Source of the DNA: Planctomycetes bacterium syqfu
Lineage (GTDB): Bacteria; Planctomycetota; Phycisphaerae; Phycisphaerales; Phycisphaeraceae
Length of the DNA stretch: 64,000 bases
Assembly (NCBI GenBank): GCA_020974905.1
Contig: CP087563.1
Span: 7,192,001 to 7,256,000, forward strand
Direction: 5' to 3'
This document shows positions 9,518 to 38,991 of this stretch, piece by piece (position 1 is the stretch's first letter; each line of letters starts with the position of its first letter). A program made the translations under genes and the position numbers. The notes beneath the pieces were generated by a model. It made no database searches. It was not told where the DNA came from and was given only the letters and a program-made list of their open reading frames with translations.

Positions 9518-11218
9518 ATGTCTGATCTTGATCGCCAAGTTTTCAAGCTCATCGTCCTGCATAACAAGTTGATGTCGGAAAAAGACCTCAACTTTTTCTT
9601 CACCAAGCACACTACGCCCGAACAATGCATCGAGCGGCTGGTGGTCAGTAACATGATCCAGCCAGAAGTCGGGAAGAAACTCGAGCAGGTTTACAAATCC
9701 AAGTTAGCCAAGGAAAAGGAACGGCTTGCCATCGCCGATTCGGTCGGAGGCATCGATGATGATGACGAACCCGAAGAACTCGATGAACCGATGCCCATGG
9801 ATGATCCGGAGGAGGATGCCATGGACTCCGGCGGATCAAGCTATGGCCTTGCTGGCGACTTTGATGATGATGGTGATCTGAATAAAGTTGATGAAGCCAG
9901 TTGGGGTGATCAGGCTGCGGTGAATCATGAAGAGAACATGGTCCATCATGTGGATGACTCTGAAAAAATCGATCTCTCCGATGAAGTTTCACCACGCAAA
10001 CTCGTCAAGGGCTTTGAAGACAGCAGTCGACTGGGGGCCAGTAAAGGTGAGTCATTACCCAAGTACAGCCGGGCTTCACTCACAGCCCATACACCCGCAT
10101 CGGTGTTGGCTCAGGACAGTGAAGACCCTGAGAGTGAAGACCACTTCAAGTCACCGGTCCCGCCTGGACAGATCGACCCGCTGGCACTCAAGCTTCTGAA
10201 AAAAGGTGTCCAACTTGGATGCTCCGACATTCATCTGGCATCGGGCGCTCCGCCGTTCTTCCGACTCAACGGTTCACTGGCTTACACGGAGTTACCACCA
10301 CTGACTCCCGAGCAGGCCAACGTCATGGCGTTGGGGTTCATGGATGACAAGCAGCAGCAGCAGTTCCTGCGCACCCATGACATCGACTTCTCGTTGGACT
10401 TTAAAGACATCGGCCGATTCCGTGTCAACGCGCTTCAGCAGTTCCGTGGGCCCTCCATTATTTTTCGATACATCCCGCGTAAAGTCCCGACCCTTGAGCA
10501 ACTGGGCTTACCCAAGAACCTGGCCAACTTCACCGAGTATCACCAGGGACTCGTTCTCGTCACCGGCCCGGCAGGATGTGGCAAGACCACCACGGCGGCG
10601 GCACTGATCGACCTGATTAACGAATCACGAAATGACCATGTCATCACCGTCGAAGACCCCGTTGAATTTTTGCATCCCTCCAAAGGCTGTAACGTCACGC
10701 AACGTCAGGTCCCCGTTCACACCGAGTCTTTTGCAGCAGCACTCAAGGCAGCGTTGCGTGAAGACCCCGACGTAATCATGATCGGTGAAATGCGTGACCT
10801 TGAAACGGTGTCCTTGGCCATCCGTGCTGCCGAGACCGGTCACCTGGTCATCGGGACCTTGCAGACCAAGTCGGCTGCCCGAACCATTGACCGCATCATT
10901 GACGTCTTCCCGGAAGATCAGCAGGCCCAGATCCGCGCGATGCTCTCTGAATCATTGCGTGGGATTATCTCCCAGAGCCTGATCCCGCGTAAGGATGGCA
11001 AGGGGCGTGTCGTTGCCTTGGAAGTGCTCAACGTGGTCAACGCCGTCTCCAATGTCATCCGGGATGCCAAGACGTATCAACTTCCGTCCATGATGCAGAC
11101 CGGTCGCAAGCAAGGCCAGGTCATGATGGATGACTCGCTGGACAAGCTCATTGCCGACGGCCTGATTACCAAGGAAGATGCATTCAAAGTCTCAGAAAAC
11201 CCCAAGCGGTTTAAGTAA
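9518..11218 (+). CDS. PilT-like type IV pilus ATPase with extra N-terminal domain and altered motifs
   Basis: From the ATG at 9518 the protein has 566 residues. Residues 1-65 are a helical domain (SDLDRQVFKLIVLHNKLM), followed by an acidic linker (DDDDEPEELDEPMPMDDPEE) to about 190. A PilT/GspE retraction ATPase follows. Walker A is GPAGCGKTTTAA (about 349-360), the Asp box ITVEDPVEF is intact, and Walker B is VIMIGEMRDLETV. The His box normally reads GTLHTNSA; here it is GTLQTKSA, so the family histidine is Gln. It may act in pilus retraction with the next gene, perhaps as a regulatory partner. The earlier TTG at 9449 is less likely. Confidence 0.85.
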   Translation: MSDLDRQVFKLIVLHNKLMSEKDLNFFFTKHTTPEQCIERLVVSNMIQPEVGKKLEQVYKSKLAKEKERLAIADSVGGIDDDDEPEELDEPMPMDDPEEDAMDSGGSSYGLAGDFDDDGDLNKVDEASWGDQAAVNHEENMVHHVDDSEKIDLSDEVSPRKLVKGFEDSSRLGASKGESLPKYSRASLTAHTPASVLAQDSEDPESEDHFKSPVPPGQIDPLALKLLKKGVQLGCSDIHLASGAPPFFRLNGSLAYTELPPLTPEQANVMALGFMDDKQQQQFLRTHDIDFSLDFKDIGRFRVNALQQFRGPSIIFRYIPRKVPTLEQLGLPKNLANFTEYHQGLVLVTGPAGCGKTTTAAALIDLINESRNDHVITVEDPVEFLHPSKGCNVTQRQVPVHTESFAAALKAALREDPDVIMIGEMRDLETVSLAIRAAETGHLVIGTLQTKSAARTIDRIIDVFPEDQQAQIRAMLSESLRGIISQSLIPRKDGKGRVVALEVLNVVNAVSNVIRDAKTYQLPSMMQTGRKQGQVMMDDSLDKLIADGLITKEDAFKVSENPKRFK

Positions 11219-11223
11219 AGGAG

Positions 11224-11321
11224 AGGGAGTAGTGAATAGGGATTAGGGAGTAGGTAAAGACATTTACGTTCGTATTGACGATCTGTCTTTGACTACTCCC
11301 TAATCACTACTGCCTACTCCC
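11224..11321. repeat. Inverted-repeat element (GGGAGTAG family) between the two pilT genes
   Basis: The arms 11224-11262 and 11284-11321 are inverted copies of a G-rich sequence built from GGGAGTAG and GGATTAGGGAGTAG, ending in AAAGACA at the inner side. About 30 of 38 positions match. The element fills the whole gap and ends 7 bases before the next ATG, leaving no ribosome site there. It resembles in style the GGGTGTGGGGTGTAGG elements near dnaJ and groEL1, but has a different sequence. Confidence 0.7.
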
Positions 11322-11328
11322 TGAACAA

Positions 11329-13675: not shown

Positions 13676-14821
13676 TCAGTTACCAAATGAGTCAAAGTAA
13701 TCCTTGATCTTGCCCCAGAAACTCTTGTTTTCAGGCATGACGTCAAAGTGTTCGGTTTCAGCGTACTTCACGAGAAGCTCGCGTTGTTCGCTGGTAAGTT
13801 TGGATGGGATTTCAATTTCAAGCACGATGCCCATGTCGCCGCGTCTTCCGGAGCGCAGGTTGGGAAGCCCCTTGCCTGAGACACGGAAGACTTCGCCGTG
13901 CTGTGTGCCTGCCTTGATGTGCAGTTCGTGTGATTCACCTTCAAGTGTGGGGACCTTGACGACTGCACCGAGTGCTGCCTGCGAGAAACTCACGGGCATG
14001 TGCATCACGATGTGGTCGTTCTCACGGGTGAAAAGTTTATGTTCAGCAATGCGGATGACCACATGCAGATCGCCACGCGGGCCGCCGTTTTCACCGGGTT
14101 CACCTTCGCCGGAGACACGAATGGCTTGGCCGTCATGGATGCCTGCGGGGATCTTGACGTTGATGATACGTTTCTTGGGTTCGGTTCCCGTGCCACGACA
14201 TTTGGGGCAGTTTTCCGCGTACTTCTTGCCTGCCCCCTGGCAAGACGGGCAGGTGGTGACCATGCGGAACATGCCACCAAGTCCAGCTTGTTGAACCTGG
14301 CCGACGCCACCACATGTGACACAGGCCACGGGGTCGGTACCGGGTTTGCCACCTGAGCCTTTACATTCGGAGCAGTGGTCTTTACGGACGAATTCGATTT
14401 CACGTTCGGTGCCCGAGAGGACCTGTTCGAGCGTGATTTCGGTTTCAGTTTGCAGGTCATACCCGCGTTGGGCACGGCGTCCGCCACGGCTGCGCGAGCG
14501 TCCGCCACCACCGAACATGTCACCAAAGATATCACCGAACATGTCGAAGATGTCGTTGGCATTCATCGAGCCGAAGTCGTGACCGGCCTGGCCACGTAAA
14601 CCAGCATGACCGTATTGGTCGTAACGTGCACGCTTCTGATCGTCCATCAAGACTTCATAAGCTTCTGCAGCTTCTTTGAATTTGTCTTCGGCTTCTTTGT
14701 TGTCGGGGTTACGGTCTGGATGGTATTTCATCGCCAACTTGCGATAGGATCGTTTGATCTCATCTTGGCTGGCGGATTTGGATACGCCCAGGATTTCGTA
14801 GTAGTCGCGTTGCGTTGCCAT
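13676..14821 (-). CDS. dnaJ: DnaJ, Hsp40 co-chaperone
   Basis: This 381-residue class I DnaJ has a J domain (1-70) with the HPD motif ([11 protein letters not shown]), a Gly/Phe-rich region with [11 protein letters not shown], four zinc-finger repeats ([32 protein letters not shown]) and two C-terminal substrate-binding domains. It stimulates the DnaK ATPase and delivers unfolded clients. It is followed at once by grpE. The sequence before the ATG has no ribosome site; an inverted-repeat element begins 10 bases upstream and may have replaced it. Confidence 0.97.
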
Positions 14822-14830
14822 ATTGTTTCA

Positions 14831-15313
14831 GGGGTTGGGGGTTAGGGTGTGGGGTGTAGGGTTAAGAATTATTTCGTGGCTTCCAAGGCTTGAATCAGAC
14901 GAAACATAATTCGTCCTGTTTCCTGTGCTTTTTGCCAAATGGGATGAAGTTGCTCTTTGCTTGCATAATTCAATCGACTCAAGAGGATAAATTGTGTTTC
15001 CAGTTCTTTTAACGAACCGTTTGCAATCGACAAATGGTGGATGTAGTCACCTCTATGCCTTCGCCCATATCCTTCAGCAATATTGGATGGAATCGACACT
15101 GCGGCTCGTCTCATTTGCGATGTGAGTCCGAATCGTTCGTCTGTAGGCAGTGTTGATGTCAATTCGTAGGTGAGTTGCACCAAGTCCATCGCATGTTGCC
15201 AAGCATCAAGATCACGATATGACTGCAAGGCGCTGGATTCTTTTTCATTTGGCATTTCCATCCAAAGTTTCTCCATTCTGAATCCTACACCCCACACCCT
15301 AAACCCCAAACCC
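14831..15313. repeat. Inverted-repeat element (GGGTGTGGGGTGTAGG family) carrying a four-helix-bundle gene
   Basis: The arms at 14831-14860 and 15284-15313 are inverted copies matching at 28 of 30 positions. Between them lies only the four-helix-bundle gene. The element separates dnaJ from groEL1, and its right arm begins just beyond the groEL1 terminator. A related copy without a gene lies at 17025-17154. The arrangement is that of a cargo-bearing mobile element without its own transposase. Confidence 0.7.
14869..15276 (-). CDS. Four-helix-bundle protein (S23 / bAvd-like family)
   Basis: The 135-residue product matches the family often labelled S23 ribosomal protein or four-helix bundle: YRDLDAWQHAMDLVQLTYEL, LTSQMRRAAVSIPSNIAEGY and SLKELETQFILLSRLNY. 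It is related in fold to the Avd protein of diversity-generating retroelements; its cellular role is not known. The frame extends upstream into the inverted repeat (a start at 15309 would encode MGFRVWGVGF from it). The ATG at 15276 is preferred, because AGGA lies 6 bases before it. It is flanked on both sides by the inverted repeat and looks like cargo inserted into the chaperone block. Confidence 0.88.
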   Translation of the reverse strand: MEKLWMEMPNEKESSALQSYRDLDAWQHAMDLVQLTYELTSTLPTDERFGLTSQMRRAAVSIPSNIAEGYGRRHRGDYIHHLSIANGSLKELETQFILLSRLNYASKEQLHPIWQKAQETGRIMFRLIQALEATK

Positions 15314-15318
15314 TCTGA

Positions 15319-15360
15319 TAAAACCAGACCCAGGACAAATGGACCTTGCCCTGGGTCTGG
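15319..15360 (-). terminator. Rho-independent terminator of groEL1
   Basis: Perfect 11-bp arms CCAGACCCAGG (15324-15334) and CCTGGGTCTGG (15350-15360) are followed on the minus strand by TTTT, 30 bases after the groEL1 stop. Transcription of the groE genes should therefore end before dnaJ. Confidence 0.85.
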
Positions 15361-15389: not shown

Positions 15390-17003
15390 TTAGCTGACGG
15401 CGCCGTCGACTGCGTCTTCGTCATCCTTGAGGTCGGTGATCATCACGTCGGTGGTGAGCATCAGACCGGAGACTGAAGCAGCGTTGCCCAGGGCGATCTT
15501 GGCGACACGAGCTGGATCGATGATGCCAGTCTTGACCATGTCGACGTACTCGCCGGTGGCAGCGTTGTAACCCTTGTTACCCTTGGCAGCCTTGACTTCT
15601 TCGACGACCAGGTAGCCATCTTCGCCAGCGTTATCGACGATCTGACGCAGCGGGGCTTCGAGTGCTGCTGCAACGATGTCAAAGCCGAGCTTTTCGTCAC
15701 CCTTGGCTTTCTTGCGAGAATCTTCCAATGCCTGTGCAGCACGGATGAACGCAACACCGCCTCCGGGGACATAGCCTTCAGCAGCAGCGGCCTTGGTGGC
15801 GTGCATGGCATCGTCGACGCGGTCCTTCTTCTCCTTGAGTTCCACTTCGGTAGCAGCACCAACGTGGATGATGGCAACGCCGCCGGTGAGCTTGGCAAGA
15901 CGTTCCTGGAGTTTTTCCTTGTCGTAATCACTGGTGGTGGTTTCGATCTGATTACGAATCTGATCACAGCGACCGGTGATGTCCTTCTTCTTGCCAGCAC
16001 CTTCGATGATGGTGGTGTTGTCCTTGTCGATGATGATCTTCTTGGCGGTACCAAGTGCATCGAGTTCGAGGGTTTCAAGGTTGACACCCAGGTCTTCGGA
16101 AAGGAACTGTCCGCCGGTCAGTGCAGCGATGTCACCGAGCATGGCTTTACGGCGATCACCAAAGCCCGGAGCCTTGACAGCACAGACCTTGAGGACGCCA
16201 CGCAGACGGTTGACGACCAAAGCAGCCAGGGCTTCGGATTCAACGTCTTCAGCAATGATCAGAAGGGGCTTCTGAGCCATGGCAACTTTGTTGAGCAGGG
16301 GAAGAATGTCAGCAAGGTTGCTGATCTTCTTTTCATGAATGAGGATCAAAGCATCTTCCAGTTCGCATTCCTGGGTTGCCGGATCAGTCATGAAATAGGG
16401 GCTCAGATAACCCTTGTCGAATTGCATGCCTTCGACGTAGTTGATGTAGGTTTCGTGGGTGTTGGAGTCTTCGACTTCAACGACGCCGTCTTTACCAACC
16501 TTGTCGATGGCTTCGGCGATGACGTTGCCGATGGAGGCATCGTGGTTCGCTGAAACGCAGGCGATGTTCTGGAGGTCTTTGAGACCTTTGCACTTGGTGG
16601 CAAGACCGTCGATGGCTTCGGAAGCGATCTTGGCAGCATTGGTGATGCCACGCTGAAGCGCGATGGGGTTGGCGCCGGCGGTGACGTGACGCAGACCTTC
16701 GGTGAAGATGGCCTGGGCGAGGACGGTGGCAGTGGTGGTGCCGTCGCCTGCTTTGTCAGCGGTCTTCTTGGCCACTTCGTTGACCATCTTGGCGCCCATA
16801 TTCTGGAACTCTTCGGGGAGGTCGATTTCCTTGGAGACGGTGACGCCGTCCTTGGTGATATGGGGATTGCCAAACGATTTCTGGAGGATGACATTGCGGC
16901 CGGTGGGGCCCATGGTCACCTTGACGGCGGAGGCGAGTTGATCCAGACCCTTTTTTAGTTGGACTTTCGCGTCGGCACCGAACATGAGTTGTTTGCTAGC
17001 CAT
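15390..17003 (-). CDS. groEL: Chaperonin GroEL, copy 1 (no GGM tail)
   Basis: This 537-residue 60-kDa chaperonin has all the signatures: [40 protein letters not shown] and [18 protein letters not shown]. It forms the double-ring folding chamber with GroES. The tail ends EDAVDGAVS and lacks the Gly-Gly-Met repeats that line the cavity in most GroELs, in contrast to the copy at 17651. It lies downstream of groES, separated from it by an inverted-repeat element starting 22 bases before the ATG. The two copies probably serve different clients or conditions. Confidence 0.97.
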
Positions 17004-17024: not shown

Positions 17025-17154
17025 GGGGGTTGGGGGGGTGGGGTATAGGGTGTGGGGTTAAGGCAAAAAGGCATTGAGTTTGGCGAGTGAGTCGACGGCA
17101 ATTTTTGTTGTTTGCTGTCTTGACCCGACACCCCAAACCCGAAACCCTACACCC
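17025..17154. repeat. Inverted-repeat element without cargo, between groES and groEL1
   Basis: A G-rich arm (17025-17060, GGGTATAGGGTGTGGGGTTA) faces a C-rich arm (17123-17154, ACACCCCAAACCC and CCCTACACCC). The words match those of the element around the four-helix-bundle gene at 14831-15313, but pairing between the arms is looser and only about 60 non-coding bases lie inside. Confidence 0.6.
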
Positions 17155-17479: not shown

Positions 17480-17545
17480 GTTTATATCTCCGTAGCAGTG
17501 TTTTGCTTTTTGAAGTTTGGTTTACTGGTTACTTGTTCAAGGCAC

Positions 17546-17567
17546 CCCTGGGGTTAAAACCCCAGGG
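17546..17567. repeat. Palindrome CCCTGGGGTT-N2-AACCCCAGGG, copy 1
   Basis: Perfect 10-bp arms lie between groEL2 and groES. The same palindrome with the same flanks (…GCCCTGGGGTT… ) recurs at 59848-59869, so it is a dispersed repeat. It might act as a transcript end or an mRNA-stabilising hairpin after groEL2. Confidence 0.6.
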
Positions 17568-17650
17568 CTTTAATGTGCAATCGGGTGTCGCCGGCGAGGG
17601 ATGTTTTCTCTTGGGCAACTTCCTGGGGGCTTCCGAGGCCGGGGGATGAA

Positions 17651-19345
17651 TTACATCATTCCCATGCCGGGCATACCGCCCATGCCGCCCATGCCACCCA
17701 TGCCACCCATTCCGCCCATGCCACCCATACCCGGGTCACCATGTGCGTGGGGGGCTTCATCCTGGGGCTGTTCGGTGACGATGCAGTCACAGGTCAGCAG
17801 CAGGGTTGCGACGGAGCAAGCATTTTCAAGTGCGGTACGGTCAACCTTGGCTGGGGTGATGATACCCTTTTCAACCAGGTCACAGTATTCCAGAGCCAGG
17901 GCGTCAAAGCCGTTGTTACCCTTCTGGGCCATGACCTTGGCGACGACGACGCTACCGTGTTCGCCGGCGTTGTTGGCAATGGTCATCAGGGGAACCTTCA
18001 TCGCGTTGGCAACGGTGGTGATGCCAGCCTGTTCGTCCACACTGGCACCCTTGAGCTTGGCCAACGCGGGGATGGCACGCAGGAAGCTTACTGCACCGCC
18101 GGGGACGATGCCTTCTTCGACTGCAGCGCGGGTGGCGTGCAGGGCGTCTTCAACGCGAGCTTTCTTTTCCTTGAGTTCAGCTTCACTGCCAGCACCGACA
18201 TTGATCTGAGCCACACCGCCGGAGAGCTTGGCCAAGCGTTCCTGAAGCTTTTCGCGATCGTAGTCAGATGTGGTGGATTCGATTTCGCGACGGATCTGTT
18301 CGATGCGTGCTTGAATGTCCGCTGAGCTGCCAGCACCTTCGACGATGGTGGTGTTTTCGCTGTCGACGGTGAGTTTCTTGGCCATACCCAGATCGGAGAG
18401 TTCGACCTGATCCAGATCGACACCCAGATCCTTCATGATGGCTTTGCCACCGGTGAGCACAGCAATGTCGCCAAGCATGGCTTTACGACGGTCACCGTAA
18501 CCCGGAGCCTTAACCGCACAGACGTTGAGCACGCCACGGAGTTTGTTGACCACGAGGGTAGCAAGGGCTTCACCTTCGATGTCTTCAGCGATGATCAGCA
18601 GGGGCTTCTTGGCTTCCTGGACCTTTTCAAGGACCGGGACAAGCTTCTGCACGCTGTCGATTTTGTCTTCGTAGATCAGGACCAGTGCCTTTTCCATTTC
18701 GACGGTCATGGCATCCTGGTTGGTGACGAAGTTGGCAGAAAGGTAACCGCGGTCAAACTGCATACCTTCGACGACATCGACGTAGGTGTCCAGACCTTTA
18801 CCTTCTTCGACGGTGATCACGCCGTCTTTGCCGACCTTCAGGAAGGCGTCTGCCATGATCTTGCCGATTTCCTTGTCGTTGTTGGCCGAGATGGCTGCGA
18901 CATTGGCGATGTCATCCTTGCGGGTGGCATCGATGGGCTTGGCAAGCTTGTTGATTTCGTCGATGACGGTGGCCACGGCAGTCTTCATGCCACGGACGAC
19001 GGCGTTGGCATCGTTGCCAGCCGCGATGTTGCGCAGGCCTTCCTTGAAGAGGGCTTCGGCGAGGACCGTTGAGGTGGTCGTGCCGTCACCCGCCTTGTCG
19101 GACGTCTTGCTGGCCGCTTCCTTGACCAGTTGGGCGCCCATGTTTTCGTTCTTGTCCGCGAGCTCGATTTCTTCAGCAACGGTCACACCGTCCTTGGTGA
19201 CGGTGGAACCGCCCCAAGACTTGTCGATCACCGCGTTGCGACCACGTGGGCCGAGGGTGGATTTCACTGCTGAAGCGAGTTTCTCGACGCCTGCCAGAAG
19301 GCTGGCGCGTGCGTCCTGTTCGAATGCCAGGTTTTTCGCAGCCAT
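17651..19345 (-). CDS. groEL: Chaperonin GroEL, copy 2 (with long GGM tail)
   Basis: This 564-residue chaperonin is the first gene of the minus-strand chaperone block. Signatures include [42 protein letters not shown] and [18 protein letters not shown]. The C-terminus has six Gly-Gly-Met repeats and ends PGMGMM, as expected for the flexible tail inside the folding cavity. GGAG lies 10 bases before the ATG. No CIRCE element (TTAGCACTC-N9-GAGTGCTAA) is upstream; a short dyad TGCCA-N4-TGGCA lies at 19398-19411, about 55 bases before the start. Confidence 0.97.
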
Positions 19346-36246: not shown

Positions 36247-36706
36247 CTCACGCCCGCTTCGCTCAAGACGCAGAGACGCAAAGATGCATGAGAATGAAAT
36301 TGTCAGATTGTTATCGATTCGGCAGTCAAGATACATCAAGCACTAGGGCCTGGACTGCTCGAATCTGTATATGAGACCGTTTTGGCAAATGATTTATCTA
36401 AACATGGATTGGATGTCCAAAGACAAGTTGCAGTGCCGATTATTTATGAAGGTTTGGAATTTAGTGAAGGATTTCGGGCAGATATCATCGTTAATGAATT
36501 AGTTATTCTGGAATTGAAATCAGTTGAGCAAATATCCAAAGTTCATCATAAGCAATTGCTGACATATCTCCGACTCAAACAAGTGAAGCTCGGATATATT
36601 CTAAACTTTGGCGCAGCATTGATGAAGGACGGTATCAAACGTATCGTCAACGGGCTCGAAAATTGAAATCTCCGCGTCTTTGCGTCTTGAGCGCAGCGGG
36701 CGTGAG
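36247..36706. repeat. Inverted-repeat element enclosing the GxxExxY gene
   Basis: The left arm (36247-36284, CTCACGCCCGCTTCGCTCAA then GACGCAGAGACGCAAAGA) and the right arm (36671-36706) are inverted copies with three or so mismatches over 35 bases. The right arm begins four bases after the stop of the gene; the left arm ends at its ATG. The words are those of the cargo-free element at 28461-28628. Confidence 0.7.
36284..36666 (+). pseudogene. GxxExxY-family (PDDEXK_3-like) protein, frameshifted near the start
   Basis: The body is intact and clearly GxxExxY: QIVIDSAVKIHQALGPGLLE plus SVYE (the signature G-x-x-E-x-x-Y), VPIIYEGLEFSEGFRADIIV and ILELKSVEQISKVHHKQLLT, with the acidic residues of a PDDEXK-like fold. 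It should begin MHENEI (ATG at 36284), but one base is missing after the ATT codon near 36301, so the start and the body are in different frames. Without repair, only in-frame TTG at 36382 remains, which loses the signature. The family function is unknown. The gene is framed by inverted repeats and looks like decaying mobile cargo. Confidence 0.8.
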
Positions 36707-38842: not shown

Positions 38843-38991
38843 AACCACAGATGAACACAGATATCAAGACAGGAATTATTGAGCACCAGATGTCAATCTG
38901 GTGCAGGTCGTTGACAAGTCGATCGCGGGACCTGCACCGCATTAACATGCGGTGCTCATGGCTTGTTTTCTATCTGTGTTCATCTGAGGTT
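38843..38991. repeat. Cruciform-forming nested repeat (ACAGATGAACACAGAT family)
   Basis: Outer arms AACCACAGATGAACACAGAT (38843-38862) and its inverted copy (38971-38991) match except one base. Inside, 38881-38957 holds GAGCACC/GGTGCTC arms with two hairpins, GCACCAGAT-N-ATCTGGTGC and GCACCGCAT-N-ATGCGGTGC, and a third pair GGTGCAGGTC/GACCTGCACC. No gene is inside. It sits between cobA-hemD and the isochorismatase gene. The outer word recalls the outer arm of the element at 28461. Confidence 0.7.

Follow-up and report, generated by a model that had tools for sequence, protein, structure and literature searches.

A four-helix-bundle gene between inverted heptamer arrays: a probable mobile gene-plus-palindrome pair resembling REPIN-RAYT systems

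In Calothrix, descriptions of short intergenic repeats go back to about 1990, and a 2008 paper by Elhai and others reportedly deals with very small mobile repeats of cyanobacteria. Several described systems share features with the arrangement presented in this article. REPIN-RAYT systems combine a gene with many gene-free inverted hairpin doublets that lie between genes, and gene and repeat co-evolve (PMC3116915, in excerpt). The 23S rRNA intervening sequence of Coxiella carries the S23 ORF inside an inverted-repeat element that is thought to be selfish; the excerpted text credits the mobility idea for rRNA intervening sequences to Ralph and McClelland 1993 (PMC4990558). Heptamer repeats form intergenic arrays in Xanthomonas (GGGAATC) and Nostoc (GGGGA(C/T)T), with four units preferred and some arrays arranged as inverted pairs (PMC4692102, in excerpt). 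In Geobacter, tandem octa- and heptanucleotide sites are paired on opposite strands (PMC2700814, in excerpt). The known parts are the protein family, the rRNA intervening sequences containing it, the heptamers of Nostoc and Xanthomonas, the paired 7/8-mers of Geobacter, and a heptamer switch in the Nostoc tRNA-Leu intron. In the open-access literature, a link between these parts, a co-variation of unit and protein, and an exchange of arms at kept sites were not found.

The locus described here lies in a stretch of 64,000 nucleotides of Planctomycetes bacterium syqfu (contig CP087563.1, positions 7,192,001 to 7,256,000), which is called the window, and coordinates refer to it unless stated otherwise. 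It consists of the following features:

14830 to 14869, no strand: heptamer-array arm (GGGTKTR units) on the dnaJ side, inverted partner at 15275 to 15314, 90% over 40 bases, period 7
14869 to 15276, minus strand: four-helix-bundle protein gene, 135 amino acids from ATG, TIGR02436 at 124 bits
15275 to 15314, no strand: heptamer-array arm on the groEL1 side, pairs with 14830 to 14869
15324 to 15360, minus strand: terminator-like hairpin 3' of groEL1, an inverted-repeat pair outside the element

The two arms are complementary at 36 of 40 positions, and each is a tandem array of the degenerate heptamer GGGTKTR. The gene fills the loop of this palindrome and is read from an ATG at 15276 to a stop at 14869; an alternative longer ORF with a TTG start extends to 15309 and runs through the groEL1-side arm. 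The first-pass annotation had recognized inverted arms around the gene and placed it between the groEL1 terminator and dnaJ. Both points are borne out, with 14831–14860 pairing with 15284–15313 at 28 of 30 bases and with dnaJ (13676–14821) on one side and the hairpin, followed by groEL1 (15390–17003), on the other. The gene is located downstream of groEL1 and upstream of dnaJ. The locus is not in an rRNA gene, and there is no Rfam match in window positions 11000–40000. The genome contains at least three groEL genes (15390–17003, 17651–19345, and a third at genome position 4011.9 kb), and half a G-rich palindrome lies immediately upstream of the start of the third.

The protein matches TIGR02436 well above the cut-off of 24 bits and PF05635 at 129.5 bits (cut-off 33.8), and it is the sole PF05635 match in the 7.38 Mb genome. 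Its AlphaFold2 model shows four helices with a mean pLDDT of 95.8. The nearest solved folds are 2gsc (TM 0.91) and 2rld, followed by Avd; the Avd structure 4dwl compares with the model at TM 0.78/0.89 and 12% identity, and entries of DGR ribonucleoproteins were matched as well. The kinship in fold with Avd claimed earlier is thereby supported, and the NCBIfam Avd model stays at 31 bits, below its cut-off of 80. Both 2gsc and 2rld contain five chains, an arrangement that would fit multiple contacts along an array of units. No catalytic site is named by the families matched. Carriage by phages was rejected, as a search of the phage collection at E 1e-5 gave no match to genes of the PF05635 type, and 32 plasmid records carry a four-helix-bundle gene.

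PF05635 was found in 40 of the 61 genomes searched, with 114 matches. Arm statistics were determined by one fixed procedure for 110 of these loci, the four weakest being left out. Inverted arms with a score of at least 17, a threshold chosen after viewing the control distribution (99th percentile 16), flank 82 of the 110 genes as opposed to 17 of 1807 controls placed at shifted positions within the same loci; two of the 28 genes without arms at this threshold score 16. The best lag is 7/7 in 65 armed loci and 8/8 in 13, so that 78 of the 82 have a period of 7 or 8. In a collection of named genomes, the 80 loci taken (the best 80 of 588 confirmed candidates) cover a dozen or more phyla as read from record titles. 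Herein, 58 loci are armed compared with 4 of 846 controls, and 54 of the 58 show a lag of 7/7 or 8/8. The genes are thus flanked by arms far above chance in both sets, and the build of palindrome plus gene is far more general than first described. The first-pass annotation was right about the presence of arms and elements and had overlooked the tandem, degenerate 7-mer build and the arms as a family-wide rule.

The arm units differ widely and include GGGTKTR, AGTTAAA, ATTTCGG, AATGACC, and AGCCATCG, among others. Four G-triplets in both arms are present in 9 of the 82 armed loci, and in 44, GGG is missing from both arms, which argues against the G-quadruplex as a general function of the arms. 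One might also suppose that the arms act at the level of RNA, forming a transcript stem that is kept as in rRNA intervening sequences. The complementary ends, the membership of the Coxiella ORF in the same protein family (PMC4990558, in excerpt), and the G-rich nature of the 5' arm (G>C in 120 of 139 loci) would agree with such a stem. Yet G-U pairs are not enriched among the arm mismatches when read on the sense strand (165, compared with 198 on the antisense strand), leaving selection on the stem unsupported, and 484 of 847 mismatches are transversions. The window stretch searched against Rfam is likewise free of matches, and rRNA was found in none of the 16 loci scanned of the 50 armless ones, making an RNA-level element the least probable of the alternatives weighed here.

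Arm unit and period track the protein more than the host. In the armed set of 82 loci, arm similarity rises with protein identity (r=0.41; maximum of 2000 permutations 0.075), and at equal protein identity, arm pairs from the same genome are not clearly more alike than those from different genomes. For 72 of 78 loci, the period is shared with the closest protein from a different genome (mean 56 and maximum 70 under permutation), and among period-8 loci, this closest protein also has period 8 in 11 of 13. Since unit and period change along with the protein, the gene seems to evolve jointly with its arms instead of being cargo acquired at random. The earlier proposal of repeats that pick up or move small genes therefore stands as far as it describes a class of palindromic repeats tied to small genes of unknown function; the picking up does not fit this co-variation. 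The same co-variation would equally arise from joint inheritance of gene and arms without binding. A locus's own arm was found again elsewhere in the same genome for 26 of the 82 armed loci (28 places, 10.2 per Mb), compared with 6 places (0.7 per Mb) in other genomes, six of which were sampled per locus; overlapping matches were clustered, and the search was limited to fetched sequence. With the overlapping loci L110 and L116 removed, 25 places remain in the own genome versus 1 in others.

The unit of this locus recurs in gene-free form. A scan for periodic palindromes detected four in the window (11224, 14830, 17027, and 38844), compared with a mean of 0 in two shuffled versions. Besides the armed gene, these are:

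11224 to 11322, no strand: gene-free palindrome with another heptamer unit (AGGGAGT-like), period 7
17027 to 17154, no strand: gene-free palindrome with the GGGTKTR arm unit in the groEL1–groES gap, absent from the same gap of congeners G001 and G003
38844 to 38990, no strand: gene-free palindrome with a 10-base unit (CACAGATGAA-like)

The 10-base unit of the last recurs at other sites of this genome. The palindrome at 17027, which is heptamer-periodic, corresponds to the cargo-free relative that the earlier reading had put at 17025. A pattern search for the unit, with the places read, yielded at least 11 gene-free GGGTKTR-type palindromes, namely 17027 and ten others of about 90–175 bp (E1–E10), as well as one half copy and one tandem array of the G-rich unit; the arm sequence is hence found elsewhere in the genome. 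Judged by eye from the flanking reading frames, E1–E10 are intergenic. Seven of the ten pass a strict automatic palindrome test, and E1, E2, and E4 fail with a score of 16. The exact unit triple without mismatch has 32 matches here compared with 3 in G001 and 0 in both G002 and G003, and from these counts, the G-rich set appears nearly private to this genome; the triple is present in 10 of the 61 genomes. A reversed-pattern control with two mismatches allowed was not neutral (111 control, 99 real), since reversal again yields a pattern of G-rich heptamers, and pattern counts were therefore not judged against it.

Other repeats are found in the same surroundings. A short palindrome with a GGGGTTAAAACCCC core (window 17536–17590) occurs at many places here and in congeners G001 and G003 and represents a separate REP-like family. 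A dispersed repeat of ~125 bp (TCATTCCCGC...GCGGGAATCCAGTGG), noted in the right flank of L387 and at L434, L436, and L446, has dozens of matches in G000 and G001 and is moreover nested inside the loops of periodic palindromes. Beside the arms, a loop motif AAGRCA/TGYCTT, picked after inspection, is present in 10 of 11 G-rich palindromes and in 17 of 18 palindromes with CACAGAG units, compared with 1.8 and 2.5 in shuffles. The set comprises E1–E10, 17027, and 18 palindromes of G003 among L379–L398, 2 of the 20 CACAGAG loci having been dropped as they have no second arm.

A second gene type shows the same build in the window:

36247 to 36706, plus strand: GxxExxY (PDDEXK_3) element, arms 36247–36285 and 36668–36706 (35 of 39 match), domain 36301–36645

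This element had been noted at 36247 and is real, its domain scoring 135.3 bits (cut-off 22), and it fails the periodic-palindrome scan of the window. At 36285–36645, the usual GxxExxY start peptide and the domain lie in different frames, and it may thus be a decayed copy. For GxxExxY genes (PF13366), 93 matches were found and 30 loci fetched; arms are present in 25 of 28 testable loci, a raw count, as control placements were run for PF05635 loci only. The arms mostly consist of CRCAGAG-like units with a period of 8–10. At least 20 CRCAGAG pairs occur in 21 of the 36 genomes with a GxxExxY gene versus 0 of the 25 without (maximum 18 in the latter). G005, G026, and G033 have GxxExxY genes and zero CRCAGAG pairs, and G037 has no pair and one low-scoring GxxExxY match. 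The GxxExxY elements, whose protein is PDDEXK nuclease-like, constitute a parallel class of the same build. Across the 61 relatives, the gene counts per genome of the two types correlate (rank correlation 0.51), and the four-helix-bundle gene count rises with genome size (rank 0.53).

The gap between dnaJ and groEL varies between congeners, as seen in 21 genomes searched. A GxxExxY gene takes the place of the PF05635 gene in congeners G001 and G003 and in the more distant G042, which refutes a fixed part of the chaperone operon. In 14 other genomes, including congener G002, the dnaJ and groEL matches are about 105–250 bp apart with no PF05635 or PF13366 match listed between them; the gap is about 430 bp in G006, and the matches are not adjacent in G004 and G041. 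The 17027 palindrome is missing from the groEL–groES gap of G001 and G003.

At the ten gene-free sites, the congeners contain palindromes with other or merely related units, unrelated sequence, or nothing. The flanks of E1–E10 were aligned in 20 comparisons (17 without G002), the flanks in G001 being mostly 87–96% identical. By eye, 12 of the 20 (12 of 17 without G002) hold a periodic palindrome, mostly with CACAGAG units; E4 and E10 of G001 are exceptions with a related G-rich heptamer. In the remaining 8, no periodic palindrome is present: E5 in G003 and E8 in G001 contain other sequence of similar or greater length, and the E4 site of G002 is empty, the adjoining stop and start overlapping each other. 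Several palindromes accepted by eye are degenerate, as E1, E4, and E8 in G003 score 8–10. In reverse, 11 of 20 CACAGAG palindromes of G003 had both flanks matched here and in G001, and by eye a periodic palindrome occupies 8 of these 11 sites here and 10 of 11 in G001; the unit is CACAGAG in 2 and 7 of them, respectively, and the rest have 7-, 9-, or 10-base units. A strict periodic-palindrome test of orthologous gaps was passed by 5 of 17 in the forward and 9 of 22 in the reverse direction (12 of 17 and 18 of 22 by eye). Against a base rate of 0.07 per spacer, derived from the four palindromes in the window at about one spacer per kb, this gives p 0.005 forward and 9e-6 reverse, and against 0.15, p 0.10 and 0.003.

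Such an occupancy could result from old palindromes at fixed sites, into both arms of which a new unit is copied genome by genome by gene conversion or templated repeat synthesis, with no insertion. Palindromes of similar size with different units at the same sites in congeners are as expected from such rewriting, and the loop motif common to both arm types, found post hoc, as well as the published case of the Nostoc tRNA-Leu intron, in which two heptamer classes have comparably been switched at a single position (PMC4476775, in excerpt), speak for it too. So do exact CACAGAG pairs, which, at the sites where this genome has its G-rich elements, were counted in 6 of 12 cases in G003 and in 5 of 10 in G001 (p 3.0e-6 at a background of 4% and 6.6e-6 at 3%, respectively), far above a background that generously assumes one spacer per kb; the site set includes places from match listings. 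However, palindromes are lacking at E3 and E4 in G002, E6 in G003, E7 in G002 and G003, and site 0 in G000 and G001. In addition, palindromes are nested at sites 3, 9, and 14, and an older arm remnant lies beside a newer palindrome at site 2 (G003), which favors insertion and decay and renders rewriting in place unlikely. A clean target duplication was not caught in the site comparisons, where flanks are too diverged or filled by another palindrome, and no movement intermediate was seen.

The same turnover bears on a regulatory reading, by which the arrays are binding sites of a four-helix-bundle or GxxExxY regulator that is itself encoded between two such sites. This would account for the co-variation of unit and protein, and the Geobacter sites have been called global regulator sites (PMC2700814, in excerpt). 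A regulon is nevertheless rather improbable: sites are gained, lost, and exchanged between congeners whose flanks, for G001, remain mostly 87–96% identical, the unit changes wholesale, and armed copies of the gene are spread over unrelated places in many phyla.

We consider it probable that this locus represents one copy of a mobile pair of gene and palindrome, akin to REPIN-RAYT without RAYT; the binding, present mobility, need for the protein, and strand chemistry in this reading are inferred. The basic building block would be one four-helix-bundle gene in the loop between two arms, each an inverted array of about 4–6 short units, here GGGTKTR. The protein would bind the unit array of its own element, in either double- or single-stranded form, and together with enzymes supplied by the cell, it may copy the palindrome into intergenic spacers. 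Spacers that already contain a palindrome would be the preferred targets, with the newcomer settling in or beside the old one, whose arms then decay. The gene-free copies would be non-autonomous and served in trans. The arms, their periodicity, their association with the gene across phyla, the co-variation of arm and protein, the recurrence of the unit within a genome, and presence, absence, and exchange at orthologous sites are observed, and the joint change of arm and protein suggests a protein that recognizes and spreads its own element.

Given the fold, a link to movement by a RAYT (Y1) transposase or by the reverse transcriptase of a DGR, located at another place in the genome, had been put forward for testing. 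This genome does share 6 Y1_Tnp and 6 RVT_1 matches, and the gene counts over 61 genomes show weak positive rank correlations (0.30 each), below that with genome size (0.53). However, of the 6 Y1 places, the 4 listed are >100 kb from any G-rich arm match, and all 6 reverse transcriptase places are >1 Mb from the locus. Tests of presence are not significant (Fisher p 0.27 for reverse transcriptase, 0.09 for Y1). RVT_1 is absent in 22 of the 40 gene-bearing genomes, 7 of which have at least three copies of the gene (G045 has 7 and G053 has 5), and G042 and G050 contain armed copies without RVT_1 and without Y1_Tnp. As a requirement, movement driven by either enzyme is contradicted by these genomes, and either as the motor is very unlikely.

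A recent case is found in cyanobacteria. In plasmids of Anabaena sp. 90 and Dolichospermum sp. UHCC 0315A, the cas region is 98.8% identical over the aligned 72% of a 3-kb query. At the cas6–cas4 junction, the former (L453) contains an armed four-helix-bundle gene with GTGACAG units inside a type I-D cas operon, and the latter an unrelated palindrome. The same junction is a 23-base gap in Nostoc sp. UHCC 0302, and in Pseudanabaena galeata, it holds another four-helix-bundle gene beside AAAAGCT and AAAAGCC heptamer arrays, whose pairing is not that of a simple inverted arm pair. The family has been described as co-occurring with cas4 and cas6 (PMC3936711, in excerpt), which may stem from the presence of such elements at the cas junction. 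A plasmid of Nostoc edaphicum (L454) has an armed copy between nrdB and nrdA; in Calothrix sp. NIES-4105, no such copy is present there.

Put tentatively, these elements may belong to a pan-bacterial mobile class without a transposase, integrase, or reverse transcriptase of its own. The arm unit would be read by the element's own protein, which is either a four-helix bundle that forms rings or a PDDEXK-like GxxExxY protein, and classes and units would compete for and replace each other at intergenic sites, such that site and build persist and the arm code changes. The orphan heptamers of Nostoc, Xanthomonas, Geobacter, and other bacteria would then represent its copies without the gene, and the intervening sequences of rRNA would be one particular form of it. 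An abundant, function-less protein family would herein be tied to families of short intergenic repeats that have so far been described piecemeal for decades and explained separately, which could account for several orphan repeat families in print. The prediction is that each protein binds its own arm unit and not that of another. Any movement of the elements would take place without a known recombinase and would remodel, within one genus, the spacers that separate essential genes such as groEL and dnaJ.

Compared with REPIN-RAYT, the many intergenic inverted doublets are present, and the associated Y1 transposase is not (4 of the 6 Y1 places listed; G042 and G050 without Y1). The gene is a four-helix-bundle or GxxExxY gene instead and lies inside the palindrome, and the arms are tandem 7/8-mers (8–10 for GxxExxY) of free sequence. 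Because the defining Y1 transposase is missing, the element is REPIN-RAYT-like and not a member. It shares the protein family and the inverted-repeat enclosure with the 23S rRNA intervening sequence but differs by lying between protein genes instead of in rRNA, by periodic arms, and by gene-free copies. Avd of DGRs is alike in fold and differs by the low identity, by a model score below cut-off, and by the lack of an RVT_1 match within 1 Mb of the locus. The Geobacter sites agree in having many copies of 7/8-mers paired on opposite strands, but in the excerpted text they are read as predicted regulator binding sites with no gene linked (PMC2700814). For the heptamers of Xanthomonas and Nostoc, G-quadruplexes are proposed in PMC4692102, the excerpted text of which contains neither "four helix" nor "S23", whereas four G-triplets in both arms are limited to 9 of 82 armed loci here. 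The Xanthomonas unit GGGAATC is nonetheless the arm unit of the Luteimonas gene L293, and a near unit to that of Nostoc, GGGGAGT, arms the gene of Nostoc L233.
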